From the NCBI GenBank assembly GCA_003142595.1, contig PLMU01000011.1, positions 4,713 to 68,712 on the forward strand: a DNA stretch of 64,000 nucleotides. The letters are read 5' to 3'. Positions 1-43,775 of this stretch are shown here, one piece after another (the first letter of the stretch is position 1; each line of letters starts with the position of its first letter). Position numbers and translations under genes: made by a program. The stretch comes from Phycisphaerales bacterium (lineage in GTDB: Bacteria > Planctomycetota > Phycisphaerae > Sedimentisphaerales > UBA12454). The notes under the pieces are model-generated. The model did no database searches and had not been told where the DNA came from. It saw only the letters and a program-made list of their open reading frames with translations.

Positions 1-274
1 CAAAAGCAGCCTTGTTTCTGTAATTACCCAGTCTGAAAAACTCCTGACCAAGTTTATCCCCGATTGGCAGGGTTCGCTAAAAAGAGCAATAGAAAAAGGC
101 GGCGGCACAGGGCTTCTTGCGGAAAGCGACTCGCTATTCGGCACAGCAAGCGCAGCGGGGAAACTGCCGGCTGCGGCAGGATTCGATTATGGCAAAAATC
201 CCGACGGCTCAGCCAAGAACGCCCCGCCGACACTTCCTAAGCCATCGACTGAAAAAAAGACTGAGAAAAAGTAG
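1..274 (+). CDS. C-terminal end of an unknown protein (truncated by window edge)
   Basis: An open frame enters from the left edge (codons in the frame starting at base 2) and ends with TAG at 272-274, giving about 90 residues. The tail is rich in Gly, Ala, Pro and Lys and finishes with a strongly basic Lys/Glu stretch (KPSTEKKTEKK). No catalytic motif, membrane segment or known domain is visible in this part. Its codon use resembles the genes that follow. I cannot name the family; the missing N-terminal part would be needed. The frame stays open to the edge and the stop is followed by a recognisable promoter, which supports it being a real gene end. Confidence 0.5.
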   Translation, partial: KSSLVSVITQSEKLLTKFIPDWQGSLKRAIEKGGGTGLLAESDSLFGTASAAGKLPAAAGFDYGKNPDGSAKNAPPTLPKPSTEKKTEKK

Positions 275-294
275 CCATATAAATCACACAGAAT

Positions 295-323
295 TTGCAT
301 TCTACCAGTTTATTTCTTATAAT
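295..323 (+). promoter_or_regulatory. Sigma-70-type promoter for the structured RNA/ABC importer operon
   Basis: TTGCAT at 295-300 and a perfect TATAAT at 318-323 are separated by 17 bases. Transcription would start near 330, just ahead of a GC-rich structured stretch (331-424) and about 200 bases before the first importer gene. Confidence 0.55.
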
Positions 324-330
324 ATATATG

Positions 331-424
331 GAGCGGGTAATTCCTGTAGTGGGTTGCCTCGGGCACCGGACCCCAAGGGCGGTTGGGCCCAGGGCGGTCG
401 GCATTACAGGGGCCGCTTTTTTTA
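331..424 (+). ncRNA. Candidate small structured RNA or leader with terminator-like end
   Basis: A GC-rich island in an AT-rich spacer folds as a rod. Bases 332-336 pair with 413-417, bases 343-351 pair with 402-410 (one G-U pair), and 372-376 pair with 383-387 around a 6-base loop. It ends in eight T residues at 417-424. A near-consensus promoter lies directly upstream at the right distance, so it could be an independent ~95-nt RNA. Alternatively it is a leader (riboswitch or attenuator) of the ABC importer operon that starts at 531. It lacks the GGAA tetraloop region of SRP RNA, and I cannot assign it to a known class. Confidence 0.35.
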
Positions 425-530
425 TGCGCAGGATTTAAACAACGTCCAATAAAAGATTGGCACATAGGATGCTTTTTTGATAGAATTTCCAGGTCGTTGA
501 AAATAACAGAAACAATGGAGGTTTGAGCTG

Positions 531-2282: not shown

Positions 2283-2317
2283 TTTAAAATTTAAAAATTA
2301 AAATGTAAAATTGTGGA

Positions 2318-2334: not shown

Positions 2335-2357
2335 GAATATTTTATAGGAGTATTATT

Positions 2358-5095: not shown

Positions 5096-5104
5096 ATTAA
5101 CCAT

Positions 5105-5140
5105 CCCGATGCGTCGGGACTTTCGCTGCGCTTCAGCGAA
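5105..5140. repeat. Double-hairpin repeat abutting the start of the next gene
   Basis: Two adjacent hairpins: 5105-5109 with 5114-5118 (five pairs, four-base loop) and 5122-5128 with 5134-5140 (seven pairs, five-base loop). They fill the whole gap between the two permease genes, and the last base is the A of the first possible ATG. The spacing leaves no ribosome site, so the element may have been inserted here or may affect translation. Confidence 0.45.
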
Positions 5141-16092: not shown

Positions 16093-16137
16093 TATCCGCT
16101 GCAAAAGTAATCAATGTATTTGAACAGAAAGGGAAAA

Positions 16138-21266: not shown

Positions 21267-21935
21267 TTAAACTCTGTGATCTTCGCGGAGGATTGTGCGG
21301 TAACCGCCGGACTGACTTCGGCTCCAATTCTTGGGCGGTTTGATTTTTTTAAGTCTATCGAGCTGGCCGATTTCCTTAAGACGCTTGTATATTAGCTGCC
21401 ATGCGCATTGCCGATTGGGGTCAACTTCACAGCGGTCTTCGCGCGAGCCGCTGCATGGACCGTTTAGCATATGTTTCGCACAGCGAGTGACCGGACAAAT
21501 GCCTCCATAAAGATGGAGAACACATTGACCGCAGGCAGCACATTTTTCAGTCCAAATTCCTCTTTCCTCAAGAATGCCGATGAACGATGTATCAAGGCCG
21601 GCATAGACCGGCTTGGAAGGATAACGCTCTGCGATAGCCTGCACGCCCGCACCGCAGGCAAGCGAAAGAACAGCGTCATTTCTTTGTATGGCCTCTGCGG
21701 CCTGCTCAATAAAAACATTGTCGCACTGGCGTTCTATAGTCAATTCTTCAACTTCAAGCTGCTGCCCTTTCAATTTTGCAGCCATCCGTAACGCAGAGGC
21801 AATAATACTGACCTCACGCTGTCCACCGGCAAGGCATACGGTAACACAGGTTCCGCAGCCAAGCACAAGAAGCTTTTTGTGACTTTTAACTATTTCCAGC
21901 AGGTCTTGTATTTTTTTTCTTTCAGCGACTATCAT
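21267..21935 (-). CDS. metV: MetV-like iron-sulfur partner of methylene-THF reductase (MTHFR_C domain)
   Basis: 222 residues. The N-terminal half contains LVLGCGTCVTVCLAGGQREV, and the C-terminal half the Cys cluster CAACGQCVLHLYGGICPVTR plus RCAKHMLNGPCSG and CEVDPNRQCAWQLIYKRL, the signature of the MTHFR C-terminal zinc/iron-sulfur domain. In acetogens MetV partners MetF and passes electrons to methylene-tetrahydrofolate reduction. The start overlaps the stop of mvhD (ATGA). It is the last gene of a ten-gene operon whose metF lies ~12 kb upstream, so MetV and MetF are probably subunits of one large complex. Confidence 0.82.
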   Translation of the reverse strand: MIVAERKKIQDLLEIVKSHKKLLVLGCGTCVTVCLAGGQREVSIIASALRMAAKLKGQQLEVEELTIERQCDNVFIEQAAEAIQRNDAVLSLACGAGVQAIAERYPSKPVYAGLDTSFIGILEERGIWTEKCAACGQCVLHLYGGICPVTRCAKHMLNGPCSGSREDRCEVDPNRQCAWQLIYKRLKEIGQLDRLKKIKPPKNWSRSQSGGYRTILREDHRV

Positions 21936-22378
21936 AATCGGCTTTCCTTTTTAGATGAACCATTTAACTTTACAGGGTTTGGACCCAGTTTTCGAACGGT
22001 TTCCACCATTTCAATAATTAAATCAGCCAAAGGCCGACCCATCGCGGCAGAAACGTTTACCATCCGGAGGCGTTCTTTTTCGATTCCGATTTCTTCGAGC
22101 ATTTCTCTTGTATAATTCACCCTGCGTTTAGCGCAAATGTTTCCTTCGACAAAATGGCAGCCGCCTTCAAGACATCCGGCGATAAACACGCCGTCGGCGC
22201 CATTTTCAAATGCCTTGATAAAATATTCGGTCTCAAGTCTGCCTGTGCACGGCGTTCGGATAATACGCACATTGGGCGGATATTGAATACGCATTGAGCC
22301 GGCCAAATCCGCCGACGAATACGCACAATAGTGGCAGCAAAAAGCAATTATTTTAGGTTCGAAAACTTCCGGTTTCAT
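21932..22378 (-). CDS. mvhD: MvhD/FlpD-type iron-sulfur electron-transfer subunit
   Basis: 148 residues. The Cys pattern IIAFCCHYCAYSSAD, then RTPCTGR, then IAGCLEGGCHFVEGN is that of the MvhD/FlpD family, which binds a [2Fe-2S] cluster and links an electron donor to HdrA. It lies three bases downstream of hdrA and overlaps metV, exactly where MvhD occurs in HdrABC-MvhD-MetFV complexes of acetogens. A second, divergent family member is the first gene of the same operon. Confidence 0.88.
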   Translation of the reverse strand: MKPEVFEPKIIAFCCHYCAYSSADLAGSMRIQYPPNVRIIRTPCTGRLETEYFIKAFENGADGVFIAGCLEGGCHFVEGNICAKRRVNYTREMLEEIGIEKERLRMVNVSAAMGRPLADLIIEMVETVRKLGPNPVKLNGSSKKESRL

Positions 22379-22381
22379 AAT

Positions 22382-25300
22382 TTATACTTTTTCCGTTATT
22401 TTTTTTATTTCTGTTTCCTGTTGCGCCTGGCCATTGCCGCTTTCAAACAACTGGCGAATCATAACCAGGAACTGGTCTGTCTCAAAATGGTGTAATTGTA
22501 TCGCTCGTGCCGGACATTCAGATGCACAAATACCGCAACCCATGCACTTGGCGGCTTCGATTTGCCCTTTGCCGTCCTTGTTGCAGAATGGCGCCGAATA
22601 CGGACAGGTGTTGACGCAGGTCATGCAAGATATACACTTCTGCTGGTCAACGTAAGAAACCTGTGCGCTGACTTCGAGCTGTGTTTTGGATAGTACCGTA
22701 GCGGCTCTTGCAGCGGCGGCGCGTGCCTGCGAGATATTCTCGTCAATGGCCTTTGGCGAATGAGCAAGACCGCAAAGGAAAATGCCTTCTGTTGTGAAAT
22801 CAACCGGACGCAATTTCATATGCGCTTCGACGTAGAAACCATCAGCGTTAAGCGGCACCTTTAGCATATCAGAGATACGCTTGTTGTTTACTTTGTCGGC
22901 TTCAACGCCGGTGCTCAGCACAACGTTATCAGCTTCAATTTCAATCTGCTCGGACAAGTCAGGACTTTTTAGCGTCACTACAAGTTCGCCGTTCTGGCGA
23001 ATCTGCGGCGGAGCATCGGGATTATAACGGATGAAAACAACGCCGGCTTCGCGAGCCTGCATATAATATTTTTCTCTGAAGCCGTAAGTTCTGACGTCTC
23101 TGTAAAGCACATAGATGTTAGCATTGGGGTCCTGCTTTTTGATTGCCAGTGCGTTTTTGACAGCCATAGAACAGCAAATTCGGCTGCAATACGGATGTTC
23201 GGTGTTGCGTGAGCCGACGCACTGAATCATTACTATATTTTGTCCTTTTGCAGGATATGTTTTTTCGAACAGGCGTTTTTCAAGTTCAACCTGCGTCAAA
23301 ACCTGCTGGGATTTGCCATATAAAAATTCGCTGGTTTGCGCCTTGCCTGCTCCTGTGGCAACAATTATGGCACCGGTCGTAATTTCGGATTTCTGGCCGG
23401 CTTTGCTGAGCGTTATATTAAATTTACCAATGTGCCCTGCGATGCTCGCGATTTCAGTCCCCAGATAAACTTTAATATTAGGATTACTCTCAACCTTTTT
23501 AATAAGATTTTTTGTAAAGCCGGTTATATCATTTTGCTCAAATGTAAAGTGAATATCGTGCAGATTTCCGCCGAGGCGGTCAGCCTGTTCAACAAGATGC
23601 GTAACGAATCCCTGGTTTGCCAATGCCAGAGCCGATGTCATTCCGCTCAGACCTCCGCCAATGACCAGACCTGTTTGATTGACCTGCAGAGTTCCGCTTT
23701 CAAGAGGTGAAAGCAGGTGTGCCCTTGCGATTGCCATCTTTACAAGTTCGGTCGCTTTTTCGGTGGCCGACTGCGGCTGTGTCGTGTGCACCCAGGAACA
23801 CTGGTCACGTATATTAGCCATTTCGAATAGATATGGGTTCAGGCCTGCTTCACGCAGTGTTTCACGGAACAAAGGCTCATGAGTTCGAGGCGTACATGAC
23901 GCGACCACGATGCGATTAAGCCGATGCTCTCGAATCATATCCTTGATGTTCGACAGGCTCGTATCCGAACAGGTGAACATTGTATGATTAGCCACGACAA
24001 CGCCAGGCTGGTTCTCGATATTTTTAACCACGCCTTCAACATCCACCACCGATGCGATATTCATTCCACAATGACAGACAAACACGCCGATTCGCGGCTT
24101 TTCGTCAGTAACATCATGCTCCGGCGGATAGACTTTTTTAGTAATAAGAGTATTTCGCGACGAGGCCAGCAGTTCCATCGCCATAGAAGCGGCGGCACTT
24201 GCCTGCGTTACCGTTTCTGGAATATCTTTCGGCTCCTGGAATGCCCCGCCGACAAAAACGCCTGGCACAGAAGTTGACAACGGATTCAGCCTGTCCGTAA
24301 GACAGAAATTGTAATCGTTAAGTTTAATATCGAGCCGCGACGTTAATTCTTTCATCGAGGCAGGCGATTCCATTCCGACCGACAATACGACAAGGTCAAA
24401 ATCTCTCATCTGCACCTGGTTGTTTTCATCGATGAAATTGACGCTAAGGTCTTTGCTCTGGAAATCCTGATAAATCCGCGAAGGAATGCTCTTTATATAA
24501 TGTATATTTTCCTGAGCTTTCGCGCGCTCATAATATTGGTCGAAATCTTTGCCGTAAGCGCGTATGTCGATATAAAAGATTGTCGCGTCAAGTCCGCTGA
24601 CGTGGTCGCTTGCGACCATAGCCTGTTTTGTCGCCATCATACAGCATATCGACGAACAGTATTCGTTGCCGCAGCTTGAATCTCTCGAGCCTACGCACTG
24701 AATCCAGGCGATGCGTTTAGCCTCCCTGCCGTCTGACAAACGTATAACATGGCCTTCGAACGGTCCTGCCGCAGAAAGCATTCTTTCAAATTGAACACTT
24801 GTAACGACATTCGCATATCGTCCGTAGCCGAATTCACCTTTTCGTTCGGCATCAAATTCCTTAAATCCGGGCGTAAGAATAACCGAACCAACCTCCAGTT
24901 CGATTGTTCGTTCTTTCATAGCGTGGTCAATAGCGTGCTGCTCACAGGCCTCGACGCATTGGTTGCACTCCGAACACAGCGCACAATTCAGGCAACGTTC
25001 AGCCTCGGCAAGTGCCTGTTCTTCGGTAAGTCCTTTTTCAACTTCATCGAAGCTGCTCAGTCTTTTTGAAACAGGAAGTTCTTCGGGCTTTGGCCGTGTT
25101 TTTTTCTCTACATCATCTATGGAAGGAAGCAAATCCTCCGGAATCGGGCGGATAGTTTCGCTGAACCTATCTGCCAGTAAATCTTTTTCATTTATGAACC
25201 GTTCGATTGATTCCGCCGCCCTTTTGCCTGCCGCTATTGCCTCAATAACAGACAAAGGTCCTGAGGAGTTATCCCCGCCGGCAAAAACATTTTTCTGCGA

Positions 25301-26875
25301 ACATTGCCCGGTTATCGGGTCGGTCTTAAAACAGCCGCGTTCGCTAAGAATATCTATATGCTCGATAAATTGCTCATCGACCATCTGGCCGATGGCAACG
25401 ATAATCTGGTCGGCATCAACCGTCATAACATCTTTTTCATCATAAACGGGACGGAAACGCTTCTGGTCGTCGAAAACTCTTGTGCAGCGTTTCAACTCTA
25501 TTGCGACCGCTGAATTTTTGCTTACAATTCGCTTCGGTCCCCAGCCGTTTCGAATCTTTATATTTTCTGCCAGTGTCGCTTCAACCTCTTCTTTGTAAGC
25601 GGGCATTTCGTTTCGCTGCTCAAGACAAATCATTTCGACATTTTTGGCACCGAGCCGCAGCGCGGTTCTTGCGACATCGACAGCAACATTACCGCCGCCG
25701 ATAACAACCACTTTGTTTTTAACTTTCGGTTTATTTGCTGAAGCGGCCTGTCTGAGGAATTCAACTCCGCCAAGAACACCGTTTATTTGCTCGCCTTCAA
25801 TACCAACTTTTCTGCTTTTGTTGGCGCCGGCACCGATGAACACAGCAGCATTGTCTTTCCGCAGCGTGTGAATGGTAATATCCTGACCGACGCGGCAATT
25901 ATAAATAAATTTAACGCCCTTTCGGCGGATAATTTCGATTTCATGGTCAAGGACTTTCTTCGGCAGCCGATATTCTGGAATGCCCCATCTAAGCATACCG
26001 CCGGCGGCGTCGAGTGCTTCATAAACCGTAACAGCAAATCCCGCATCTGCCAAATCATTTGCTGCGGTAAGCCCTGCAGGCCCTGAACCTATTATTGCGA
26101 TTTTTTTGGCGTCAGCCGAAGGAGTTTTTTCCGGCGGCAGTTCCAGTTGACCTGCCTGGAGTAATTCCATTTCTTTATCCGATGCGAACCGTTTGAGCAA
26201 TCTTATCGCAATCGGGTCGTCCGCTTTGCCTCGCATGCATTCAGCTTCGCACGGATGTGTGCATACCCTGCCGCAAATAGCGGAAAGCGGATTTCTTTGG
26301 CGAATCAGATTAACGGCTTTTACATATTCTTTTTTCTTTATAAGCTGAACATATCCCTGAACATTTACATTCGCAGGACATTTAATCTTACAAGGCGAGT
26401 GCCCGTTTTTAAGAATTCCAAAAATATTCGGAGTCGCTTGCGCGTAATGTTTGGCGATGCCTTTTCTGGTTCCCAGACATCGGTTGAACTCATCCGGTAT
26501 GTCCACCGGGCAAACCTGTGTGCATTCACTGCAGCCGGTGCATTTATCTTCGTCCACATATCGCGGATATCTTTTGACCGTTGCTTTAAAATTGCCGGGC
26601 TGTCCCTGCAGGTCCACCAGTTCAGAAAGCGTCAATATCTCAATATTTAAATTTCGTGCGCACTCGACAAGTTTCGGCGAGACGATGCACGTTGCACAGT
26701 CGCCTGTCGGAAATGTCTTGTCCAGATGCGCCATCATTCCGCCGATAGCAGCATCACGCTCGACCAGATATACCTTAAAACCGCTGTTTGCTAAATCCAG
26801 CGCCGCCTGAACACCGGCGATACCGCCGCCCTGCACAAGCACTGCACCTGTTTTTTTGTCATCAAGTTTACTCAT
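22382..26875 (-). CDS. hdrA: Giant HdrA with inserted GltD/NfnB-like NADPH module and duplicated HdrA core
   Basis: 1497 residues, about twice the size of ordinary HdrA. Order: a HdrA FAD site (VQGGGIAGVQAALDLANSG, ~15-33) with a [4Fe-4S] motif (CTGCSECTQVCPVD, ~112); a GltD/NfnB-like module with its own Cys motifs (CKIKCPANVNVQGY; CGRVCTHPCEAECMRG), an FAD site (IIGSGPAGLTAANDLA, ~262) and an NADP site (VVVIGGGNVAVDVA, ~391); the rest of the first HdrA (CLNCALCSECNQCVEACEQ and WIQCVGSRDSSCGNEYCSS); a second HdrA core (VFVCHCGMNIASVVDVEG; VIGGGLSGMTSALAL; MIQCVGSRNTEHPYCSRIC); and a C-terminal ferredoxin pair (CISCMTCVNTCPYSAP; CMGCGICASECPARAI). HdrA is the electron-bifurcating flavoprotein. 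The inserted module suggests direct NAD(P)H oxidation or reduction. It overlaps hdrB by 8 bases. Confidence 0.88.
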   Translation of the reverse strand: MSKLDDKKTGAVLVQGGGIAGVQAALDLANSGFKVYLVERDAAIGGMMAHLDKTFPTGDCATCIVSPKLVECARNLNIEILTLSELVDLQGQPGNFKATVKRYPRYVDEDKCTGCSECTQVCPVDIPDEFNRCLGTRKGIAKHYAQATPNIFGILKNGHSPCKIKCPANVNVQGYVQLIKKKEYVKAVNLIRQRNPLSAICGRVCTHPCEAECMRGKADDPIAIRLLKRFASDKEMELLQAGQLELPPEKTPSADAKKIAIIGSGPAGLTAANDLADAGFAVTVYEALDAAGGMLRWGIPEYRLPKKVLDHEIEIIRRKGVKFIYNCRVGQDITIHTLRKDNAAVFIGAGANKSRKVGIEGEQINGVLGGVEFLRQAASANKPKVKNKVVVIGGGNVAVDVARTALRLGAKNVEMICLEQRNEMPAYKEEVEATLAENIKIRNGWGPKRIVSKNSAVAIELKRCTRVFDDQKRFRPVYDEKDVMTVDADQIIVAIGQMVDEQFIEHIDILSERGCFKTDPITGQCSQKNVFAGGDNSSGPLSVIEAIAAGKRAAESIERFINEKDLLADRFSETIRPIPEDLLPSIDDVEKKTRPKPEELPVSKRLSSFDEVEKGLTEEQALAEAERCLNCALCSECNQCVEACEQHAIDHAMKERTIELEVGSVILTPGFKEFDAERKGEFGYGRYANVVTSVQFERMLSAAGPFEGHVIRLSDGREAKRIAWIQCVGSRDSSCGNEYCSSICCMMATKQAMVASDHVSGLDATIFYIDIRAYGKDFDQYYERAKAQENIHYIKSIPSRIYQDFQSKDLSVNFIDENNQVQMRDFDLVVLSVGMESPASMKELTSRLDIKLNDYNFCLTDRLNPLSTSVPGVFVGGAFQEPKDIPETVTQASAAASMAMELLASSRNTLITKKVYPPEHDVTDEKPRIGVFVCHCGMNIASVVDVEGVVKNIENQPGVVVANHTMFTCSDTSLSNIKDMIREHRLNRIVVASCTPRTHEPLFRETLREAGLNPYLFEMANIRDQCSWVHTTQPQSATEKATELVKMAIARAHLLSPLESGTLQVNQTGLVIGGGLSGMTSALALANQGFVTHLVEQADRLGGNLHDIHFTFEQNDITGFTKNLIKKVESNPNIKVYLGTEIASIAGHIGKFNITLSKAGQKSEITTGAIIVATGAGKAQTSEFLYGKSQQVLTQVELEKRLFEKTYPAKGQNIVMIQCVGSRNTEHPYCSRICCSMAVKNALAIKKQDPNANIYVLYRDVRTYGFREKYYMQAREAGVVFIRYNPDAPPQIRQNGELVVTLKSPDLSEQIEIEADNVVLSTGVEADKVNNKRISDMLKVPLNADGFYVEAHMKLRPVDFTTEGIFLCGLAHSPKAIDENISQARAAAARAATVLSKTQLEVSAQVSYVDQQKCISCMTCVNTCPYSAPFCNKDGKGQIEAAKCMGCGICASECPARAIQLHHFETDQFLVMIRQLFESGNGQAQQETEIKKITEKV

Positions 26876-27746
26876 TGCTGTTTTGAGCCACCTTTTCTAA
26901 AATATTTGAAGCCGGAACCATAAGTTTTTTGAATCCGAGTTTATCCGGGCTGATGCCGAAACTTAGTCCGAGAAGTTGCGTGATATATACAATCGGCATT
27001 TCATAATCTCTGCCGGTTTGCTTTTTAATGTCCTGCTGCCGCAAATCAAGATTGACCTGGCACATCGGGCAGCTCACCGCTATGCAATCGGCCCCTGCCT
27101 TCTGAGCCATACCGAGAATTGAATCCGTCAGATCTACCACCACATCAGTTCTCGTAAGCGACAAACCTCCGCCACAGCATTCGACCTTGCCCGACCAGTC
27201 AATACTTTCTCCGCCAATAACTTTTACCAGCTTATCGAGCGATGTCGGATTTTCAGGGTCGTCGAATTTCATAACTTTCGGCGGACGAACAAGCAGGCAG
27301 CCGTAATAACAAGCTACCTTAAGACCTTTTAGCGAATGTTTGACGGCCTTTTTAATTGTCTCAAGTCCGACATCTTTAAGAAGCACTTCTACAAAGTGTC
27401 GAACGTTAACCGAACCATCGTAATCTCTGCCGATTGCGTCGCAAACACTTGTGCGAATTTCGGAATCGGTCGAGATTTCGTTGTTTGCCATTTTCATTCT
27501 GTTGTAGCAAGCTGCGCAATTAACAACCATATCCAGTCCCATATCCTTAACTTTGACCAGGCTGGCAGCTGGCAACGAAGCGGCCAATATTCGGTCCGTT
27601 TGATGACCCGCAGTTGCTCCGCAGCATGTCCAGCCTTTTGGCTCTACCATCTCGATTCCCAAAGCCTTGGCAACAGCCAAAGTAGATTCGTGCATATCGC
27701 GGGCTGTCGATTCAGCAGAACATCCTGGATAATAAGCATACCTCAT
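26868..27746 (-). CDS. hdrB: Heterodisulfide reductase-type subunit HdrB (two CCG domains)
   Basis: 292 residues. The first CCG domain shows YYPGCSAESTA, WTCCGATAGHQ and VVNCAACYNRMK; the second shows CYYGCLLVRPP, KVECCGGGLSL and SCPMCQVNLDLR. These Cys sets bind the non-cubane [4Fe-4S] clusters of HdrB. In methanogens HdrB reduces CoM-S-S-CoB. In bacteria without that disulfide it acts as an electron relay or reduces other acceptors. The start overlaps the hdrC stop (4 bases). Here it probably relays electrons within an HdrABC-MvhD-MetFV complex. Confidence 0.9.
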   Translation of the reverse strand: MRYAYYPGCSAESTARDMHESTLAVAKALGIEMVEPKGWTCCGATAGHQTDRILAASLPAASLVKVKDMGLDMVVNCAACYNRMKMANNEISTDSEIRTSVCDAIGRDYDGSVNVRHFVEVLLKDVGLETIKKAVKHSLKGLKVACYYGCLLVRPPKVMKFDDPENPTSLDKLVKVIGGESIDWSGKVECCGGGLSLTRTDVVVDLTDSILGMAQKAGADCIAVSCPMCQVNLDLRQQDIKKQTGRDYEMPIVYITQLLGLSFGISPDKLGFKKLMVPASNILEKVAQNSNE

Positions 27747-28312
27747 ACTTTGGCCCCTTTATTTTCTTTAGTTTTTTTGAATATCCTTCGGACGATTTTT
27801 CTGTCGCCATGGAGCGAAGGTATCAGCGATATTTTGCCTTTTTTGATCATTGTCGGAAATTTTTCCGTGTCGTTCATAAATTTACCTGTCCCAAGTTTAT
27901 AGGCGGCTATCATCGCGATTTCGTATGTTCGGCCGAAAATTTCCACTGTTTTCAAAAATGCCTTGTTAAACAGCGGCACATTGCCTTTCTGTTTCGATGC
28001 CTTCCTTTCAAGTGCCAGTTTTCGCAACGCGTCTATTATCGCCGCAACTTCAATTCCCATCGGACAGCGAGTCGAACAGGTCTCGCACGAAACGCACGTC
28101 CATATAATATCGCTTTCAAGCAGCTCATCCCCTGCGTTCAGGTGCAACCGTCGCATAATCTCCGAAGGCCTTGATACAGTCTGTTTATTCACAGGACATC
28201 CGCTGGAGCATTTCTTGCACTGCAAACAAATGCTCAGGTCAGCGCCGCTTAGCTGCTCAACAATCTCCTTAAGACGGTCGCTTTTTTTAGTTTTTCTAAT
28301 CGTTATCGTCAT
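27743..28312 (-). CDS. hdrC: Heterodisulfide reductase-type subunit HdrC (2x[4Fe-4S])
   Basis: 189 residues. Two ferredoxin motifs, ICLQCKKCSSGCPVNK (near residue 29) and WTCVSCETCSTRCPMGIE (near 71), carry the cubane clusters that connect HdrA to HdrB. The rest is helical and soluble. It follows the glutamate-synthase amidotransferase gene by 15 bases and overlaps hdrB by four. The gene order C-B-A is the common bacterial arrangement. Confidence 0.9.
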   Translation of the reverse strand: MTITIRKTKKSDRLKEIVEQLSGADLSICLQCKKCSSGCPVNKQTVSRPSEIMRRLHLNAGDELLESDIIWTCVSCETCSTRCPMGIEVAAIIDALRKLALERKASKQKGNVPLFNKAFLKTVEIFGRTYEIAMIAAYKLGTGKFMNDTEKFPTMIKKGKISLIPSLHGDRKIVRRIFKKTKENKGAKV

Positions 28313-28327
28313 ATTTTCTTTCGCAAT

Positions 28328-31003
28328 CTATTCTGTTTTTGCGGCCGGTTCTTCCTCTTCTTCAAATGCCTCTTCAGTATCGTCCGTATTTTCTTCCGAG
28401 GCTGCAGCAGAAATATGGCCGGGAACAACTTTTCGATAAACTTTTTCCGGTTTCTGTTTTCGGCCGTTCACTGTCAAAAGCTGGTCTATTGTTATTCCAA
28501 AAAGTTTTTGATTTTCTTCAAGGTAAGGCAGAATCAAATCCCAGTCCTGGTCTGTAAGCTCGGCAAAGTGTCCGCCGTTCAACTGCTGGTCGACCAGCAT
28601 ATTATTGGGGTCGCGGACATAAATCGCCCCGCCCGATGCGAGAGAAAACAGGTTGCTGCCCGGATAAGGATGCGGCAGAGAAACCAATCGTCCGTCGTCA
28701 TCGAATTTGACACCGTTTAATACAACAAAACCACCACCGTTATAAGGATCGCCCGCCATAAATGATTCAGCGAGAAAATCCAGACACGTGCCATTTATTA
28801 CCACTCTGGGTCTGCCGACAGAATTGATAAGAGGTCTTCCCGCCGCGTTTCCCAGAACAAATACGCTTCCGCCTTTGGCTCCGTACATAAATGTCTGGCC
28901 CACGTCGCCGTAAATAACTAATTTTCCCCTTTTTATAATTTGCCCAAGCTGGTCCTGTGCGTTTCCATGCACGCTAATTGTAAGTCCGTCGATGCCCGAA
29001 CTGAGATAATCGCCGCTGCTGCCGTAAACATCTATTGTCACTTCATCGGTATCAGGCCCAAGTCCGCAGCCTATGTACCGCTGACCGATGCAATTAAAGC
29101 TGATAAAATGCCGCCACCCTTTTATATATGCGTTGACCAGCAGAGTCGCGTCGCAGTCGTTCCCTTCCGGCGCAAAATGTGCTGCGTCTATTACAAGAGT
29201 CTTTTCATTGCCCTGCGGACCTCTTAGACTGTCACGAGTATCAAAATCTATTAGGCGAAATTCGCCTTCATAAGAATTATTATTGATGATATTTGGAATT
29301 CCGTTCAGCAGCCGTTTCATCTCACCGTGTATTATATGAAGAATATGACTGCGTTTCTTCGAACCGGTCGAATATCTTCGGTCGTTAAGCCGGCTCAAAA
29401 CCTCTATAGCGGTAGTCGTTTCAGCCGCGTTTTTCGCCTGGTTCACTATTTGCTGACACGCCAGCCGAAACTCATCGAACGTCCACTCGGGTATCAGCTC
29501 TCGCATCATTTCGAAAATCGCCAGGCTGTTGCCGGGCACGAATTTTTCGTTGATTACAGTCTGGATTGCTTCCTCGGATTCGGAGGATACCAAAACTCCC
29601 TGTGTAAAATCGCATCTATCTGTACCAGCCGGCATTTGAACTTCTTTGCCGAATTTGTCTGTGCACGTAATTTTCATTTTGCCGGCCGAATCTTTTTCAA
29701 GATTGAATATAAACGACCCGCCGTCCGTATAACTGCCGCCGCGTGCGTTCCAGTATTTGTCCGCCACCGGGCATATTCTATCGTCATCTTGCGACATACT
29801 GAGCAATGTCGCATCAATCGCCTGTTTTTCCGAGCATATCAATCCGACCTGCACCTCGCCATCGCAGAATGCGAACACCTGCGGCCGCAGCATTGCGGTA
29901 TCGGTAATGCCCATCAGTTGCAATTTCTTTTCGCGAACAATATTGCGTGCGATAATGAAAAACCACGGGCCGTCAGGCGAACCGTGTATGTGAGCCGCCT
30001 GTATGGCTCTGTAATTTTTTTGTTTCTCTTCGTCCAGTCGGTCGAAATCCAATTCCGTCGTCGGGGCAAGTGCCTCGATGATATACTCGAGCGGATAATG
30101 ATAAGTCCTGCTCAATAAATCAAACAGCAGTGCCGATACTTCTGTATCCGTCAGAAATTGCGGATATATATTTCGCTGCCTCAGATATTCCGTTACCGAA
30201 TGGTAATTTGCAAAGTCGCCGTTGTGTACAAGCGCCATATCGATTGCCGCGAAAGGATGTGCTCCGCCGGGATGCCATACTCGGCCCTTTGTCGGGAACC
30301 GTTGATGTGCTATCCAAACGTGAGCACGAAGGTCTTCAATTTTATAATATTTTACAATCGCTTCAGCAAAGCCGACGACCTTTAATATCATAATATTTCT
30401 GCCGTGAGAAAGAACAAAGGCTCTCTTCTCGCCTAAAGACGCGTAATATTTCTGATTAAGCTCAAAGCTGTTCTGACTAATAAATTCTTCTTCCGCTTCC
30501 CCGCGCTCAAGTTTCTGCAGATTATTCTTTGCAATAAACGAATCCAGCACCGCAGGCTTAACGCGAACAAAATATCGGCAGACATCGGGAGGTTTTACTT
30601 CCAGGCCGGGCACGGTTTTCCAGTCATCGACTTTATCGAGCTGACTCATCGCCGCGATATCGAAATTGGGCGTGATAAATTGCTTTTCTATTTCCGGCCG
30701 GACTTTATCGTCCAGGAACGCTACGTGCAGCATATAATAATTTTCGAGCACTTCCCTGCTTACGCCCATTTGTTCCGACACAAATCCAACCGCAGCTATA
30801 CCGCCGCCTTTGCCGTTTCCTCGATTGTGCATCTGCCGCGAAGGTTCGTAAATATGTTTGCCCGCCGCCGGCTCACTGCAGCAAAAACCGACAACGCCGC
30901 AACCGCCTTCTTCTGCTTCTTTTTTTATCTCAGAAGAACAGTTGAGGTTTTCAGCCAGTTGTTTTCTCGAATATGCAAGTTTTTTTATTAATTCATCGTT
31001 CAT
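28328..31003 (-). CDS. gltB: Glutamate synthase glutamine amidotransferase + GXGXG subunit
   Basis: 891 residues combining two of the three GltB regions. The class II amidotransferase domain starts at EGGCGVVGFCC; the Cys at residue 35 would become the N-terminal nucleophile after removal of a ~34-residue propeptide, as in other GltB proteins. HQRFPTKGRVWHPGGAHPFA is the glutamine-site motif. After ~residue 600 comes the beta-helix GXGXG domain (GDYLSSGIDGLTISVHGNAQ; GAKGGSVFVLGNAAGRPL). The FMN synthase region is absent here and lies in the two neighbouring genes. It ends with an acidic tail. It hydrolyses glutamine and passes ammonia to the synthase subunit. Confidence 0.86.
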   Translation of the reverse strand: MNDELIKKLAYSRKQLAENLNCSSEIKKEAEEGGCGVVGFCCSEPAAGKHIYEPSRQMHNRGNGKGGGIAAVGFVSEQMGVSREVLENYYMLHVAFLDDKVRPEIEKQFITPNFDIAAMSQLDKVDDWKTVPGLEVKPPDVCRYFVRVKPAVLDSFIAKNNLQKLERGEAEEEFISQNSFELNQKYYASLGEKRAFVLSHGRNIMILKVVGFAEAIVKYYKIEDLRAHVWIAHQRFPTKGRVWHPGGAHPFAAIDMALVHNGDFANYHSVTEYLRQRNIYPQFLTDTEVSALLFDLLSRTYHYPLEYIIEALAPTTELDFDRLDEEKQKNYRAIQAAHIHGSPDGPWFFIIARNIVREKKLQLMGITDTAMLRPQVFAFCDGEVQVGLICSEKQAIDATLLSMSQDDDRICPVADKYWNARGGSYTDGGSFIFNLEKDSAGKMKITCTDKFGKEVQMPAGTDRCDFTQGVLVSSESEEAIQTVINEKFVPGNSLAIFEMMRELIPEWTFDEFRLACQQIVNQAKNAAETTTAIEVLSRLNDRRYSTGSKKRSHILHIIHGEMKRLLNGIPNIINNNSYEGEFRLIDFDTRDSLRGPQGNEKTLVIDAAHFAPEGNDCDATLLVNAYIKGWRHFISFNCIGQRYIGCGLGPDTDEVTIDVYGSSGDYLSSGIDGLTISVHGNAQDQLGQIIKRGKLVIYGDVGQTFMYGAKGGSVFVLGNAAGRPLINSVGRPRVVINGTCLDFLAESFMAGDPYNGGGFVVLNGVKFDDDGRLVSLPHPYPGSNLFSLASGGAIYVRDPNNMLVDQQLNGGHFAELTDQDWDLILPYLEENQKLFGITIDQLLTVNGRKQKPEKVYRKVVPGHISAAASEENTDDTEEAFEEEEEPAAKTE

Positions 31004-32580
31004 TTTTTCACCCCGACATCATTGGAATAGTCAAGATGCATTAAAAGATCGCTGCGGCCTCGAAGTTCTTTGACGCTGCGCATTCCAAACTGCTGAAGAA
31101 TCCTGACAATCTCTTTGCGCCATGCGCTATAAAGGTTAATAATCCGCTGAGTGCCCCAGTCGATATTTAATTTTTTACACAATTCCGGGTCGGTAGTCGC
31201 GATACCTCTCGGACAGCCTCGTCCGCTTTCACATCTGCTGCAACGTATGCAGCCAAGCGCGACCAATTCCGCTGTTCCTACGACGACTCCATCTGCACCA
31301 AGTGCGATAGCTTTGGCAATATCGTGTGCCGAGCGTATTCCGCCGCTTGCTATGAGCGTTACCTTGTCACGAGCCCCTTCATCCGTCAGAAAATTATGCA
31401 CCCTGCCAATAGCATACTCAATCGGCATCGCGATATTTTTCTTTGCGATATCAGGTGCCGCGCCGGTTCCGCCGTATCCGCCGTCTATATGTACGATATG
31501 AGTGCCCGCAGAATAACTGCCGACCGCGACCATATCGACATCCGTCGGCGTCGATACTTTTGTCGATATCAATGCCCGTCTGTTGACATGCTTAATCCAG
31601 TCGATGTGTTTCATATGGTCTTCGATGGAATATACGCTGTGAAACGGGAATGGCGAGAACAGTGATATCCCAAGCACCGCTTCGCGCATTTTCGCGACTG
31701 CGACAGTATTTTTATCGCCCAGCAAATGTCCACCAAGACCCGGCTTTGCTCCCTGCGCATATTTGAATTCCACGATCGGCACACGCTGAATCGTTTCCTC
31801 GCGCACACCGAATAGGCCCGTCGCAACCTGTGTAATCACATGTTCGTCGTATGGCCTCATACGTTCCATATACCCGCCTTCGCCGGTGCACGTGAACGTA
31901 TTCCACGCGACAGCAGCCCTTGCTTTTGATAATTGCGTTGCGTTGCTCACCGAGCCGAACGACATTCCGCCCCCATACCACGGAATATCAATTTTTATTT
32001 TCGGCCGTCCATCGTCGCGTTTATTCAGCAGGATGCTCGTATCAATCTCGTCTTCGCTGAGTTTTACAGGCGGCTTGTCAGGGAATTTGAATCTAAGTTT
32101 ATCGAATCCCCCGCCGGAATTGCCGCACTGGTAATTATAACCGTAAGCCGAATCGGGCACATCGCCGGTTTCCGCCATTTTCCACGTCGCCAAAATCAAA
32201 TCCGCCGGCCAGCGATAATCCCCCATCGTCTTATACATCGAGCTTTCTTTGAGCTCCAATGCTCCGTTGGGACAGTTCGCTATGCAGTAATGACCACTTT
32301 TTTCGCAGGATGTTCCAATGCACAAATGATTATTCGGCTCGCCGAAATATTTGTAGCCCGGTTTCAGCGTATGAACGTTATATTTGCACAATTGGGCGCA
32401 TTTGCCGCAAAGTTTGCATTTGCCATTGCGATGGACAATATACCTGGCGATTTCATTCCGATACCGCGGCGGCGTAAATTTGACATCGCGCGTCACTTTT
32501 TCCTGCGGCACAAGTGTCTTCACCGTATTTTCGGGTAATATTTCCCTAATTGCTTTTTCTTGTTCCGAATAATTTGCCAA
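31000..32580 (-). CDS. Glutamate synthase FMN-binding subunit with ferredoxin motifs (archaeal-type)
   Basis: About 526 residues. An N-terminal ferredoxin part (CKLCGKCAQLCKYNV, then CIGTSCEKSGHYCIANCP) precedes the FMN synthase barrel: PWYGGGMSFGSVSNATQLS, CTGEGGYMERMRPYDEH, FKYAQGAKPGLGGHL, HIDGGYGGTGAAPDIAKK and ASGGIRSAHDIAKAIALGAD. A Cys set near the end (CIRCSRCESGRGCPRG) matches the GltB [3Fe-4S] site. It makes glutamate from 2-oxoglutarate and ammonia. The frame is open to an ATG at 32625, but that gives an 80-base overlap with the upstream gene. I prefer TTG at 32580, preceded by GAAAAGGA. The stop overlaps the gltB start. Confidence 0.84.
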   Translation of the reverse strand: MANYSEQEKAIREILPENTVKTLVPQEKVTRDVKFTPPRYRNEIARYIVHRNGKCKLCGKCAQLCKYNVHTLKPGYKYFGEPNNHLCIGTSCEKSGHYCIANCPNGALELKESSMYKTMGDYRWPADLILATWKMAETGDVPDSAYGYNYQCGNSGGGFDKLRFKFPDKPPVKLSEDEIDTSILLNKRDDGRPKIKIDIPWYGGGMSFGSVSNATQLSKARAAVAWNTFTCTGEGGYMERMRPYDEHVITQVATGLFGVREETIQRVPIVEFKYAQGAKPGLGGHLLGDKNTVAVAKMREAVLGISLFSPFPFHSVYSIEDHMKHIDWIKHVNRRALISTKVSTPTDVDMVAVGSYSAGTHIVHIDGGYGGTGAAPDIAKKNIAMPIEYAIGRVHNFLTDEGARDKVTLIASGGIRSAHDIAKAIALGADGVVVGTAELVALGCIRCSRCESGRGCPRGIATTDPELCKKLNIDWGTQRIINLYSAWRKEIVRILQQFGMRSVKELRGRSDLLMHLDYSNDVGVKK

Positions 32581-33943
32581 AGGTTTCCTTTTCAAGATTC
32601 TCAAAAAACATTGCGCGTCCGACATCGCCCCTAAGCCGCCGAACCTCGCGCATTCCCATCGCTCCCATAACTTCTATCAGTTGGTCGTGCCAGGCCGCGA
32701 CAAGATTCGTCATTCGCCCGACACCGTATTGGAAATCGATTTTTTCCAGCTTCGCCGGACACGTCATCCCCGGCCTGCAGCTACTGCAAAGATGGCATTC
32801 CAGTGCAATCATCACAGGCAGATTAATTGTTACCACATCCGCCCCGCATATTATCGCTTTTGCAACATGTTCCGGCAGTGCGATTCCACCCCCTGCCATA
32901 ATAGTTATTTCATCCCGGCACCCTTTTTCAATCAGCGCCGTATGAATCTGACGCAGCATATCTTTAATGAAACGCGGTTTCGCCGCTCCAATTTCATTGC
33001 CATTCAGGTCCGCCGAAACGTGTATCACTTCAACTTCTTTAAGCTGTGCAAGTTCGATCGCTCGTTCAATTCCACCAGCCGCCAAATCAACTCTGATAGC
33101 TATAACTATTTTTGGATGTATTGCTTTTATATCTTTAATGCGATCTGCCACACGAGGACTGTCGGCTATTTCAACCAGCCTCGTTTTCTTTAGCAGCTCA
33201 TTCGGCAAAGCAGGACTATCCGGCCCTAAATAAAATGCTATATGTTCCAGTTTTTTTTCGTCAACTGGTTTGTTGCGCCATTCAATTATTGCTATTATGT
33301 CGGTATTAACCGCCGTCTGTATAATAATTTCATCAAGTTGCGGCAGCGTGTGCACGTCCGATGTCATATCCAAAATCAATGGCATTGGAATCGAAACAAG
33401 TGGATGCGGATTTTTCGCTGTTGCGCCTGCCTGAAAATCCAGATACGATAATTTTCTGCCGATATCCACTGAGGTACTGATATACTCCCGCCCATGAATA
33501 CCATCCCGCGTCGGACGAACAATCTCGGACATGTCCGTCCACATAGAATCAAAACCCTGTCCTGAAAACGGGCCACGATATCCTGCTCCGGAAACCGGAA
33601 TTTTCGCTGTTTCAGCCTGAAGCCATGTCGTTTTAATAATGTCCGCTGTCCAATAACTGTTCCCGAGTTTTTCATATTCAGGATTTACCGCCATCTTCAG
33701 AATTCCTTTTGTGCAATCCTGAACGCACGATAAACATCCCATGCAATCGAAAAACAAAGCGTTCACTTCGCTTAGACTTCGAATATAATCCGCCTCCTGC
33801 CTGTAGCGGTCATAAACGCACGCCTTTTTCACGCAGTTATGACAGCATGCGCAATCTTCGCGCCAATCCACTATGCCGTATTTACCAATGCGCGGCATAC
33901 GCGGCGGTACAGGTTGAGTTTTAATATGATATTTTTCCGGCAT
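32546..33943 (-). CDS. Second glutamate-synthase-like FMN-domain protein, divergent active site
   Basis: 465 residues, paralogous to the downstream protein. Its N-terminal Cys motifs (CACCHNCVKKACVYDR; FDCMGCLSCVQDCTKG) and C-terminal region (CHLCSSCRPGMTCPAK; YGVGRMTNLVAAWHDQLIEV) align with it. The barrel core is divergent: the GGGMSFGS, EGGY and GGYGGTGAAP stretches are missing or replaced (for example SADLNGNEIGAAKPRFIKD), while MAGGGIALPEHVAKAIICGA keeps the phosphate-binding end. It may therefore be a structural or electron-transfer subunit rather than a synthase. It starts 14 bases after metF ends. Confidence 0.75.
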   Translation of the reverse strand: MPEKYHIKTQPVPPRMPRIGKYGIVDWREDCACCHNCVKKACVYDRYRQEADYIRSLSEVNALFFDCMGCLSCVQDCTKGILKMAVNPEYEKLGNSYWTADIIKTTWLQAETAKIPVSGAGYRGPFSGQGFDSMWTDMSEIVRPTRDGIHGREYISTSVDIGRKLSYLDFQAGATAKNPHPLVSIPMPLILDMTSDVHTLPQLDEIIIQTAVNTDIIAIIEWRNKPVDEKKLEHIAFYLGPDSPALPNELLKKTRLVEIADSPRVADRIKDIKAIHPKIVIAIRVDLAAGGIERAIELAQLKEVEVIHVSADLNGNEIGAAKPRFIKDMLRQIHTALIEKGCRDEITIMAGGGIALPEHVAKAIICGADVVTINLPVMIALECHLCSSCRPGMTCPAKLEKIDFQYGVGRMTNLVAAWHDQLIEVMGAMGMREVRRLRGDVGRAMFFENLEKETFGKLFGTRKSN

Positions 33944-33957
33944 ATCTTTCCCAGTAT

Positions 33958-34863
33958 TTACAGCCCGGATGCGGCGAGAATTTGGGGCACCAATTCTTCC
34001 TTACCTCCCGAAAGAATATGTATCCCTCTCAAACCTTTCATCTTTTTTAGCTTGCTGATTATTTCAATACAAATATTCATTCCTTCTTTTTTCTGCGAAT
34101 CTTTGTCGCCTGCTTTTTTCAGCCGTTCGACAATCGCGTCAGAAACATAATAGTCGGTATAAGTATCTCGCAGATTTTGTGCCTCATCGGCGCTGTCCAA
34201 AGGAAAGACACCGGCCAAAATAGCTGTTTTTTTATCGATGCCTTCACTGACAACTGCATTAAACCATTGACCGAATGTTTCAACATCGAATACCGCGTGA
34301 GTCTGAATAAATTTTGCTCCGGCTTCGACTTTTTTGCCGAGCTTGAGTATGTTAAGCTCCAGAGGCTTCAAAAACGGGTTTGCGACTGCCCCGACAAGCA
34401 TCGAAAATTGCCCGTCAATCTTTGCCCCGTTGTCAAGCTCACCTTTTTCCGACATTTTCGTTACCATTTCGATAAACTGAGTCGAATCTATATCATAAAC
34501 ATTGGCCGATTCCGGGTATCCCGTCAGCACCTGATGATAGCCCGATAAACATAATATATTTTTTATTCCAAGATAGCTTGCTCCGAGCAAATCGGACTGA
34601 ATCGCTATTCGATTTCTGTCGCGTGTTACAACCTGATAAATCGGTTCGGCACCGGATTTGATTACCGCAACTGATGCCGCAAGAGACGACATAGCCATAC
34701 CGTGATGGTTGTCGGATACATTTATCGATGCAAGTCCCTTACCCAGGGCTTTCAAAGCTGCTTCAGTCGCCAAGCCGTTCGCTTCTGCTATGGGCTGTAG
34801 CTCGGCGGTGACAATAAAATCTCCGGTTTCAATTTTCTTTGCGAGTTTGCTATCTGCTTTCAT
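33958..34863 (-). CDS. metF: Methylenetetrahydrofolate reductase MetF
   Basis: 301-residue flavoprotein TIM barrel that reduces methylene-THF to methyl-THF in the methyl branch of the Wood-Ljungdahl pathway or for methionine synthesis. Landmarks are FIVTAELQPIAEANG at the N-terminus, INVSDNHHGMAMSS, PIYQVVTRDRNRIAIQSDLL, and KFIQTHAVFDVETFGQWF near residue 190. The loop that in homologues I recall reads GDHQ/GDPP is SGYHQ here. With metV at the far end of the operon it forms the MetFV pair of acetogen type, which uses HdrABC/MvhD-delivered electrons instead of free NADH. It is separated by 14 bases from each neighbour. Confidence 0.9.
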   Translation of the reverse strand: MKADSKLAKKIETGDFIVTAELQPIAEANGLATEAALKALGKGLASINVSDNHHGMAMSSLAASVAVIKSGAEPIYQVVTRDRNRIAIQSDLLGASYLGIKNILCLSGYHQVLTGYPESANVYDIDSTQFIEMVTKMSEKGELDNGAKIDGQFSMLVGAVANPFLKPLELNILKLGKKVEAGAKFIQTHAVFDVETFGQWFNAVVSEGIDKKTAILAGVFPLDSADEAQNLRDTYTDYYVSDAIVERLKKAGDKDSQKKEGMNICIEIISKLKKMKGLRGIHILSGGKEELVPQILAASGL

Positions 34864-34877
34864 ATGACGCTGGTTTC

Positions 34878-35300
34878 CTATTCCTTAACAGAATTGCTGC
34901 ATAAATTGGATTTAGGCAGATTTATAATCTTGTTGAAGAAATTATTTATTTCCCCAAGAGTTTGTTTCGTATCGTCTTTTAATTCGATAACAGCCATTCG
35001 TCCGGCGCCCATTCCAATTTCCTCAAGAAGCGATTCCACCGCTTCGGCACGTTTCTGTGCCCGCAAATTTCCCTCATTATTCTGACATTCATTTTTCTTG
35101 CACGTTACTATTACCGCGCCGTCTGCGCCGGTTTCAAACGCTTTCATTAAATAAGGAACATCCACTTTGCCGGAACAGGGCAGACTAATTGTCTTAACCG
35201 TGATACCATCGGCTCGGCTGCAAACGCCGGACAACTGCTCTTTATCAAGGCTGTTTGAGCAGCAAAAGACATATATCTTCTTCATGACTCGATTATTCAT
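34878..35300 (-). CDS. Divergent MvhD/FlpD-like protein, first gene of the bifurcation operon
   Basis: 140 residues related to the mvhD product (IYVFCCSNSLDKEQ, LPCSGKVDVPYLMKAFETGA, IVTCKKNECQNNEGN), so it keeps the Cys-pair framework but with different spacing and fewer Cys at the N-terminus. It may dock the glutamate-synthase or MetF module to the electron-transfer core. A second in-frame ATG at 35285 is possible. A promoter lies about 110 bases upstream. The presence of two MvhD-type subunits in one operon is unusual. Confidence 0.75.
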   Translation of the reverse strand: MNNRVMKKIYVFCCSNSLDKEQLSGVCSRADGITVKTISLPCSGKVDVPYLMKAFETGADGAVIVTCKKNECQNNEGNLRAQKRAEAVESLLEEIGMGAGRMAVIELKDDTKQTLGEINNFFNKIINLPKSNLCSNSVKE

Positions 35301-40433: not shown

Positions 40434-40735
40434 TTCATTAAATTAATTTTATTCACCAGTATAGTTTTTGAGTTTCTGTATATCGATATAACCAGGCAAA
40501 GTCCCACAACAGCCGACGCAGCTGCTATCGCTATCACGAAAAGGGCAAAAATTTGCCCCAGACCGTCGGGACTTGCCGAAAATTTGCTGAATGTTATCAG
40601 GTTTATATTCGCTGCATTCAATATCAATTCGATAGACATTAGAATTCCGATTGCGTTCCTGCGGGTAAACACGCCGAATACACCTATCGAAAACAGCGCC
40701 GCGCCAAGAATCAAAAAGTGGCTTTCCGGTATCAT
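40427..40735 (-). CDS. nuoK: NADH-quinone oxidoreductase-type subunit K
   Basis: 102 residues with three membrane segments. The conserved Glu of helix 2 appears in GILMSIELILNAANINLITF, which is diagnostic for NuoK. The second helix-3 Glu position is replaced by small residues (VIAIAAASAVVGLCLVIS). The ATG overlaps the nuoJ stop (ATGA), as usual for these two genes. Confidence 0.92.
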   Translation of the reverse strand: MIPESHFLILGAALFSIGVFGVFTRRNAIGILMSIELILNAANINLITFSKFSASPDGLGQIFALFVIAIAAASAVVGLCLVISIYRNSKTILVNKINLMKW

Positions 40736-43766: not shown

Positions 43767-43775
43767 ACAGTTTAA

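Follow-up and report, generated by a model that had tools for sequence, protein, structure and literature searches.

HdrABC, MvhD and MetFV make up a methylene-tetrahydrofolate (methylene-THF) reductase in acetogens such as Moorella and Sporomusa, and in Sporomusa ovata MetVF is tied to MvhD and HdrCBA (PMC9430772; papers are cited here and below for their abstracts or excerpted passages). Clusters of hdrABC-mvhD-metVF have also been reported in marine Chloroflexi (PMC5736913) and Actinobacteria (PMC7325909), in passages that leave glutamate-synthase genes unmentioned. An HdrA with an inserted GltD/NfnB-like domain is known as HdrL, which adjoins MvhD in Desulfobacterium autotrophicum (PMC2702500), and as type III HdrA or HdrA9-11 in archaea (PMC12054007, PMC9012536); these loci contain genes for sulfite reductase or formate dehydrogenase, or mvhADG, and the excerpts describe no glutamate-synthase genes in them. 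The split glutamate synthase of Firmicutes and archaea, represented here by Monoglobus pectinilyticus (L151), consists of a Cys-nucleophile glutaminase, a ferredoxin-flavin mononucleotide (FMN) synthase subunit, a GXGXG subunit and a flavin adenine dinucleotide (FAD)-oxidoreductase partner. Three glutamate-synthase-like parts also occur in N-methylglutamate synthase and GlxBCD, which is what we take the Paracoccus and Rhizobium examples used for comparison to be. Here we analyze a stretch of 64 000 nucleotides (the window) from a Phycisphaerales bacterium (assembly GCA_003142595.1, contig PLMU01000011.1), in which an operon at 21267-35300 brings together all six gene families of the HdrABC-MvhD-MetFV system with the genes of a split glutamate synthase interposed. 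An earlier note on this DNA knew of no described system of this composition, and we likewise found no description of one in the full-text literature, as judged from abstracts and passages and with subscription papers and preprints outside the scope.

The note had read the operon as ten consecutive minus-strand genes, and all ten open reading frames (ORFs) are confirmed, with intergenic gaps of at most 15 nt and overlaps elsewhere. Gene identities were taken from Pfam and NCBIfam profile matches. In order of transcription the genes are:

34878..35300, minus strand: mvhD1 (P0010), MvhD/FlpD-like iron-sulfur protein that opens the operon (PF02662, E 6e-24)
33958..34863, minus strand: metF (P0009), flavoprotein of the methylene-THF reductase (MTHFR) family with Y109 and H189 in place of the folate Asp and Gln (PF02219, E 1.8e-26)
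32546..33943, minus strand: gltFMN2 (P0008), degenerate glutamate-synthase FMN barrel (PF01645, E 2.1e-16)
31000..32625, minus strand: gltFMN (P0007), FMN/synthase barrel with an N-terminal ferredoxin-like domain (PF01645, E 1.4e-91)
28328..31003, minus strand: gltGAT-GX (P0006), class-II glutaminase fused to a GXGXG beta-helix (PF01493, PF13522)
27743..28312, minus strand: hdrC (P0005), with two 4-Cys [4Fe-4S] motifs (TIGR03290, E 9.3e-19; Cys spacing)
26868..27746, minus strand: hdrB (P0004), with two CCG cysteine sets (PF02754; TIGR03288, E 2.1e-64; Cys positions)
22382..26875, minus strand: hdrA (P0003), 1497 aa, with a GltD-like insert (Pfam, NCBIfam and PDB matches; nucleotide-binding motif)
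21932..22378, minus strand: mvhD2 (P0002) (PF02662, E 2.1e-49)
21267..21935, minus strand: metV (P0001), which closes the operon (PF12225, E 1.4e-37)

The 80-nt overlap of the gltFMN2 and gltFMN frames possibly results from a wrongly called start codon; an in-frame GTG shortly past the gltFMN2 stop is a candidate for the true start of gltFMN near 32525. In contrast to the Moorella and Sporomusa system, the window operon contains glutamate-synthase genes, two MvhD genes and a GltD insert in HdrA, its MetF is without the folate Asp and Gln, and its genome gives no acetyl-CoA synthase (ACS) match. It also differs from the split synthase of Monoglobus by fusing the glutaminase to the GXGXG part, adding a degenerate FMN barrel, carrying the GltD part inside HdrA and having FPFHS as its synthase loop.

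Conservation of this arrangement was assessed in one genome per species with P0008 alone as the query, so that selection of loci by MetF or Hdr is excluded. A relative is encoded in 268 of 327 candidate stretches, and the locus counts that follow come from the best 80 of these 268, weaker relatives being left out. MetF lies directly upstream of FMN2 (within 1.2 kb) in 71 of the 75 loci with room for it, and 66 of 68 have MvhD no more than 2.5 kb upstream. Downstream, the second FMN gene follows directly in all 73 loci with room and GAT-GX is present in 56 of 58, while HdrA is found in 43 of 52 and both HdrB and HdrC in 40 of 52. The note had proposed a search for conserved co-occurrence and had allowed for an order unique to this assembly; recurrence across loci selected by P0008 rules out chance or misassembly as the source of the gene order. 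Carriers bear 13 phylum names: Planctomycetota, Verrucomicrobiota, Thermodesulfobacteriota, Chloroflexota, Bacteroidota, Ignavibacteriota, Omnitrophota, Latescibacterota, Hydrogenedentota, Armatimonadota, Sumerlaeota, Kiritimatiellota and Fibrobacterota. These names are the labels of the records, nearly all of which are metagenome-assembled genomes (MAGs).

Wider stretches were re-read from 14 cluster genomes, 11 of them of the HdrA type. The order continues through HdrC-HdrB-HdrA-MvhD-MetV in 7 of the 11 and as HdrA-NuoF-HdrA-MvhD-MetV in two more, so MetV follows hdrA-mvhD in 9/11; in one the contig ends after MvhD, and in one (L213) MvhD2 and MetV are absent after HdrA. Pairwise distances co-vary among the seven families compared, with r of 0.83-0.95 in all 21 pairs and none of 500 permutations reaching as high. 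At the level of sequence, such co-variation shows common inheritance, not contact. Conserved order and distance co-variation thus support a co-inherited unit, and we conclude that this is a real and widespread operon that joins a split glutamate synthase to an Hdr/MvhD/MetFV electron module.

The clusters come in several forms. Variant (a) has the full gene set of the window. In variant (b), found in 11 loci (L058, L092, L094, L096, L097, L102, L103, L105, L107, L108 and L112), HdrA is split around a NuoF-like protein, which stands beside a short HdrA part, and query residues 132-635 of HdrA, the GltD insert, are unmatched. Judged by these matches, the NuoF-like gene in place of the GltD insert represents an exchange of the NADH-input module. 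Four of these loci (L105, L107, L108 and L112) have no HdrB or HdrC between GAT-GX and HdrA; in two of the four that were re-read (L216 and L217), MetV is followed by an HdrC-like stretch and then another HdrA. Variant (c) combines MvhD and the glutamate-synthase genes, mostly with MetV-MetF before or after them, with no HdrA nearby (L111, L114, L118, L120, L122, L123 and L126, mostly with delta-proteobacterial labels); L118 and L122 have no adjacent MetF. Variant (d) consists of the three glutamate-synthase genes alone, in planctomycete stretches L036-L038. What stays constant is the glutamate synthase together with MvhD and, in most cases, MetF; the NAD(P)H-input part is exchangeable. One locus, L124, has a tandem pair of differing clusters: one contains MetV-MetF but lacks Hdr genes, the other is followed by HdrC, HdrB and HdrA. 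A MAG of Desulfosudis oleivorans (L125) carries the cluster in rearranged form.

The note had placed a complete split glutamate synthase between metF and hdrC, and this is borne out, with the small-subunit counterpart lying within HdrA. We compared the subunits with solved glutamate synthases (GltS), whose domain layout is described in PMC8097209. Residue counts use complete ORFs within length and score limits, which kept 59 of 86 GAT-GX, 75 of 97 FMN, 76 of 85 FMN2 and 69 of 76 MetF sequences (window included). All 59 of 59 members have Cys35 of P0006, and across a further set of 42 it does not vary. The predicted model of P0006 has a confidence score (pLDDT) of 82.6, and its structural alignments begin at residue 35, which falls on residue 1 of GltS 1ofd, 1llw, 6s6s, 1ea0 and 2vdc, on residue 1 of PurF and GlmS, and on residue 22 in 7mfm. 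About as many residues stand ahead of the Cys in the A. brasilense GltB frame as the 34 that precede Cys35, and by the model Cys35 is the mature Cys1 after predicted propeptide cleavage. Residues 35..863 match 22..1473 of GltS 7mfm with Z 27.7, a root-mean-square deviation (rmsd) of 3.3 and 584 aligned residues, and the match to 1ofd is similar (Z 27.0, rmsd 3.2, 576 aligned). The GXGXG beta-helix is supported by PF01493 and by the model match to GltS up to residue 863.

P0007 aligns with solved GltS alpha subunits. Its residues K294, H300, R314 and E335, kept in 74, 74, 75 and 75 of 75 members, stand at Synechocystis K972, Q978, R992 and E1013 (offset taken from the solved-structure alignment). 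We take K972, R992 and E1013 to be the 2-oxoglutarate/coupling residues of the Synechocystis enzyme. The Q978 position is His in P0007 and likewise in Monoglobus. Four cysteines (459, 462, 465 and 471) occur where A. brasilense GltS has three at its [3Fe-4S] site. Among the relatives, one FMN gene (L075), otherwise well conserved, has two in-frame TGA codons, one of which falls on the last Cys of the C-terminal 4-Cys motif; possible explanations are selenocysteine, recoding, a pseudogene or a sequencing error.

Of the two FMN-domain genes named in the note, both belong to the Glu_synthase family, but the one at 32546-33943 is degenerate: P0008 is without the substrate-loop segment that carries the synthase residues described above. 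Its cysteines form two N-terminal Cys motifs and one C-terminal 4-Cys motif, and its invariant residues cluster at 116-155, at 383-443 and in the N-terminal cysteines. The predicted model (pLDDT 76.2, below 50 over the greater part of 117-150) fits the synthase domain of GltS, with residues 788-1179 of 6s6s giving Z 23.8, rmsd 3.8 and 317 aligned residues. As this is the best model match, we rejected an assignment of P0008 to the GltS 'central domain', although the protein might still act in place of that domain. Foldseek alone ranks IMPDH and hydroxy-acid oxidases first, and fold likeness by itself was not taken as evidence of function.

HdrA runs from its N-terminus through a GltD-like insert at about 157-640 (PRK12771 and gltA-type matches at about 156-663 between the HdrA parts, and PDB matches) to the HdrA core and a second HdrA copy at about 925-1480. 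The counterpart of the glutamate-synthase small subunit therefore resides within HdrA. The insert reads LEQ(R) where 4 of 26 HdrA-family rows carry YRR, the NADPH-type sign; an LEQ-type position is read as favoring NADH. Because of this motif, and because a NuoF-like gene stands in elsewhere, NADH appears the more likely donor than NADPH. We estimate from free energies that glutamate synthesis lies near -55 mV. NADH and the methylene-THF couple are given as -320 mV and -200 mV (PMC8760232). On these values, ferredoxin bifurcation would be better served by glutamate synthesis than by methylene-THF as its high-potential partner.

MetF of the window has Tyr109 at the position of Asp120 and His189 at that of Gln183 in the Escherichia coli enzyme. 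Both residues have folate-binding roles in MTHFR (PMC11094777, PMC9900621); the E. coli D120N variant retains 0.3% of kcat, and Km rises >250-fold when Gln183 is changed to Ala or Glu (PMC11094777). The folate Asp is replaced in 58 of the 70 cluster MetFs (Tyr in 30, Thr in 14, Phe in 5, His in 4, others in 5), counting L182, which belongs to the genome of L055. Other MTHFR matches were read where the locus was at hand, in 30 loci besides that of the window; nine are cluster copies, and the 21 non-cluster MTHFRs all keep the Asp. The MetF tree gathers 59 cluster MetFs in a single group (support 98/96), all but L034 without the Asp, while the Asp-bearing MetFs of variant (c), L102 and L106 fall outside it, among the non-cluster MTHFRs. 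The simplest reading of this tree would be that an MTHFR was recruited to the glutamate synthase and that folate binding was then lost in the Hdr-bearing line. The genome of the window has two further MTHFR-family matches, both with the folate Asp. In the same genome, L003 (G000:C3) encodes a long protein in which, as judged by eye, an MTHFR-like N-terminal part is joined to a MetV-like cysteine region and further sequence; it keeps the folate Asp.

Neighboring genes in other lineages suggest a role in nitrogen assimilation, not carbon fixation. NrpR (PF01995), AmtB (PF00909), P-II (PF00543), a class-I amidotransferase (PF00117), sigma-54 activators (PF00158) and glutamine synthetase (PF00120) recur beside the cluster. 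Homologues of amtB, P-II, NrpR or glnA occur in 24 of the 80 loci (419 kb of flank), or in 22 of the 49 with at least 2 kb upstream, compared with none of 20 control stretches (400 kb, from two genomes only). In 8 loci NrpR directly precedes MvhD (spacing of -11 to 45 nt), and in 2 more it is one or two ORFs off; L065 has the order AmtB-PII-NrpR-MvhD-MetF-FMN2, and L114 has AmtB-PII-GlnA-GATase-MvhD-MetV-MetF-FMN2-FMN-GATGX. On the carbon side, ACS (PF03598) has no match in the genome of the window, which is 98.47% complete; formyltetrahydrofolate synthetase is present there. Of the planctomycete genomes that have the glutamate-synthase genes, 3/7 give an ACS match, as do 11/16 other cluster genomes; G399, where the cluster sits on a 3.5-Mb chromosome record, has none. 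This distribution suggests that the cluster is not tied to the acetyl-CoA pathway. Of 20 genomes, 18 carry glutamate dehydrogenase-family genes. Apart from that of the cluster, no Glu_synthase match stronger than 1e-30 was found in 4/7 planctomycete genomes (G099, G263, G037 and G081) and 6/16 others (G394, G395, G396, G397, G404 and G405), several of which are incomplete or of untold completeness.

We propose that the operon encodes an electron-transfer enzyme with the split glutamate synthase as its business end, fed with NAD(P)H through HdrA and with MetFV re-used as a relay, and we give this reading a probability of roughly one half. In such a complex, glutamine would be hydrolysed at Cys35 of P0006, and the FMN barrel of P0007 would be where the ammonia is added to 2-oxoglutarate and the imine reduced to glutamate. 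P0008, as a degenerate barrel with iron-sulfur motifs, may serve as a structural and electron-relay partner. NAD(P)H, with NADH the likelier of the two, would donate electrons to the GltD-like domain of HdrA (or to the NuoF-like protein in some lineages), and MvhD, MetV and MetF would relay them to P0007 and P0008 instead of acting as a methylene-THF reductase. HdrA may also bifurcate, reducing ferredoxin alongside, because glutamate synthesis from NADH is strongly downhill. In a bolder reading, which we consider less likely than not, the system could be a nitrogen-controlled, flavin-bifurcating glutamate synthase in which NADH reduces both 2-iminoglutarate and, via HdrA, ferredoxin, with the MTHFR rebuilt as an internal relay. 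If so, anaerobes would regain as reduced ferredoxin the energy that an ordinary glutamate synthase wastes, and a further electron-donor class would stand beside the NADPH-, NADH- and ferredoxin-dependent enzymes.

Several observations weigh against this proposal. The main doubt concerns the substrate: the P0007 loop reads FPFHS (F326, F328, H329, S330) in 75/75 members, where the aligned canonical and split GltS (A. brasilense, Monoglobus) read PxPHHD, and the substrate could therefore differ. PxPHHD is defined by this comparison and not taken as a known defining feature of GltS. The insert in HdrA has GGGNVA, a GXGXXA motif, where archaeal type III HdrA has GXGXXG, and GXGXXA is held to indicate NADP and not NAD (PMC12054007). 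Loss of folate residues is partial across the family, as 12 of 70 cluster MetFs keep the Asp, HdrA-bearing L034 and L102 included, and 40 of the 58 without it retain Gln183. The equivalent of catalytic Glu28 (E21 in the window) is retained in 67 of 69 MetFs and the RDRNR motif in all 69, so that cluster MetF probably still carries out flavin chemistry.

Regulation and distribution add to these points. AmtB, P-II, NrpR and GlnA are absent from the window and from its Phycisphaerales kin L048-L051. GGAA-N6-TTCC sites, presumably the NrpR operator consensus, occur in 2 of 61 upstream regions with 0.73 expected, and more loosely spaced sites of this type in 4/61 with 2.23 expected, so enrichment is unsupported. 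Strict sigma-54 sites are found in 3 of the 61 regions against 0.14 expected; they are not general, and none is in the window. Two of these three belong to sister lineages (L064 and L067), which share TGGCAC-N5-TTGCT about 52 nt before the first cluster gene. The genome of the window also has a canonical GltB (1542-aa frame) within about 5 kb of two adjacent amtB genes (region G000:C6:88179-97171), and the operon is therefore a second glutamate synthase in this organism; GltB frames >1,500 aa occur in 6/16 other cluster genomes, with strong partial ones in G402 and G406. Within the phylum sample, P0006 has a match at E 0.001 in 168 of 392 genomes, yet a strong one (>350 bits) in only six, namely that of the window, G277, G099, G071, G037 and G081, with G263 cut by a contig end, and in none of 10 other genomes of the same order. 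Only G277 among these shows MetF and Hdr genes alongside in the stretch read; contig ends cut the locus in G099 and G263, and G071, G037 and G081 have the glutamate-synthase genes alone. The spread within the phylum is patchy, perhaps through transfer of the operon.

The note had suggested that the system couples one-carbon (C1) reduction to glutamate formation, and MetFV could be a working MTHFR complexed with the glutamate synthase, with methylene-THF as a second acceptor or methyl-THF as an electron donor (couple at -200 mV, PMC8760232). The full HdrABC-MvhD-MetFV set is present, as in the MetVF-MvhD-HdrCBA link of Sporomusa ovata (PMC9430772), and the catalytic Glu is nearly always retained. 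Most MetF-bearing clusters without HdrA moreover have a MetF that keeps the folate Asp and adjoins MetV. Against this stand the loss of the Asp120 equivalent in 58/70 cluster MetFs while all 21 others read keep it, the severity of the E. coli substitutions at both folate positions (PMC11094777), and a genome for the window that has no ACS match and two other Asp-bearing MTHFR-family matches. With the nitrogen genes that flank the cluster elsewhere, these results make C1 coupling probably wrong for the type of the window and possible for the HdrA-less type; overall we regard a working MTHFR in one complex with the glutamate synthase as unlikely.

Co-regulation alone, with glutamate synthase, Hdr and MetFV as separate enzymes on one transcript, would account for the planctomycete stretches in which the glutamate-synthase trio has no detected Met or Hdr genes and for loci that miss HdrBC or HdrA. 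It fits poorly with an order that is kept and co-inherited over many phylum labels and with a GltD partner fused into HdrA, and it seems to us quite improbable. The changed substrate loop, from HHD to FHS in all members, and the presence of canonical GltB in some of the genomes would be explained by a glutamate-synthase-like enzyme with another product, through a different keto acid acceptor or an exchange like that of N-methylglutamate synthase. We think this very unlikely, since the equivalents of K972, R992 and E1013, with the roles we assume for them, are kept, the cluster keeps company with nitrogen genes, and the Paracoccus and Rhizobium (Glx-type) enzymes diverge far more at the same loop (RSACRHPDW, where the window has FSPFPFHSVYS). 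On that difference in the synthase subunit we rejected N-methylglutamate synthase itself as the identity of the operon, and the Paracoccus and Rhizobium proteins also have no ferredoxin domain on their FMN subunit.

Other genes of the window were noted in passing. A complex I (nuo) set lies directly upstream of the operon (35621-44730, minus strand), with three antiporter-like subunits (35621-40433), NuoH, NuoD and NuoB; among the 80 loci nuo genes flank the cluster only in the close kin L048, and a link to the operon was rejected. An oligopeptide-type ABC transporter cluster at 531-6363, plus strand, comprises two family-5 solute-binding proteins in tandem and a permease of the OppC type. A deoxyhypusine-synthase-family gene, here in a bacterium, lies at 16114-17316 on the plus strand (PF01916, E 2e-66) and is followed by an integrase-core transposase gene (17827-18651). 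A two-partner secretion (TPS) pair at 54022-62879, minus strand, encodes a 2262-aa TPS-domain protein and a ShlB/FhaC-type transporter.

For genome annotation, the presence of HdrABC-MvhD-MetFV genes alone is no evidence of acetogenesis in such genomes, because the cluster travels with a glutamate synthase, several of the genomes have no detectable ACS, and MetF has usually lost a folate-binding residue. Annotation of the acetyl-CoA pathway in MAGs from metF, metV and hdr matches may be misled accordingly. If the proposed electron-transfer glutamate synthase is right, many uncultured anaerobes carry out a central step of nitrogen assimilation with an undescribed enzyme complex, one that may save energy where it is scarcest.

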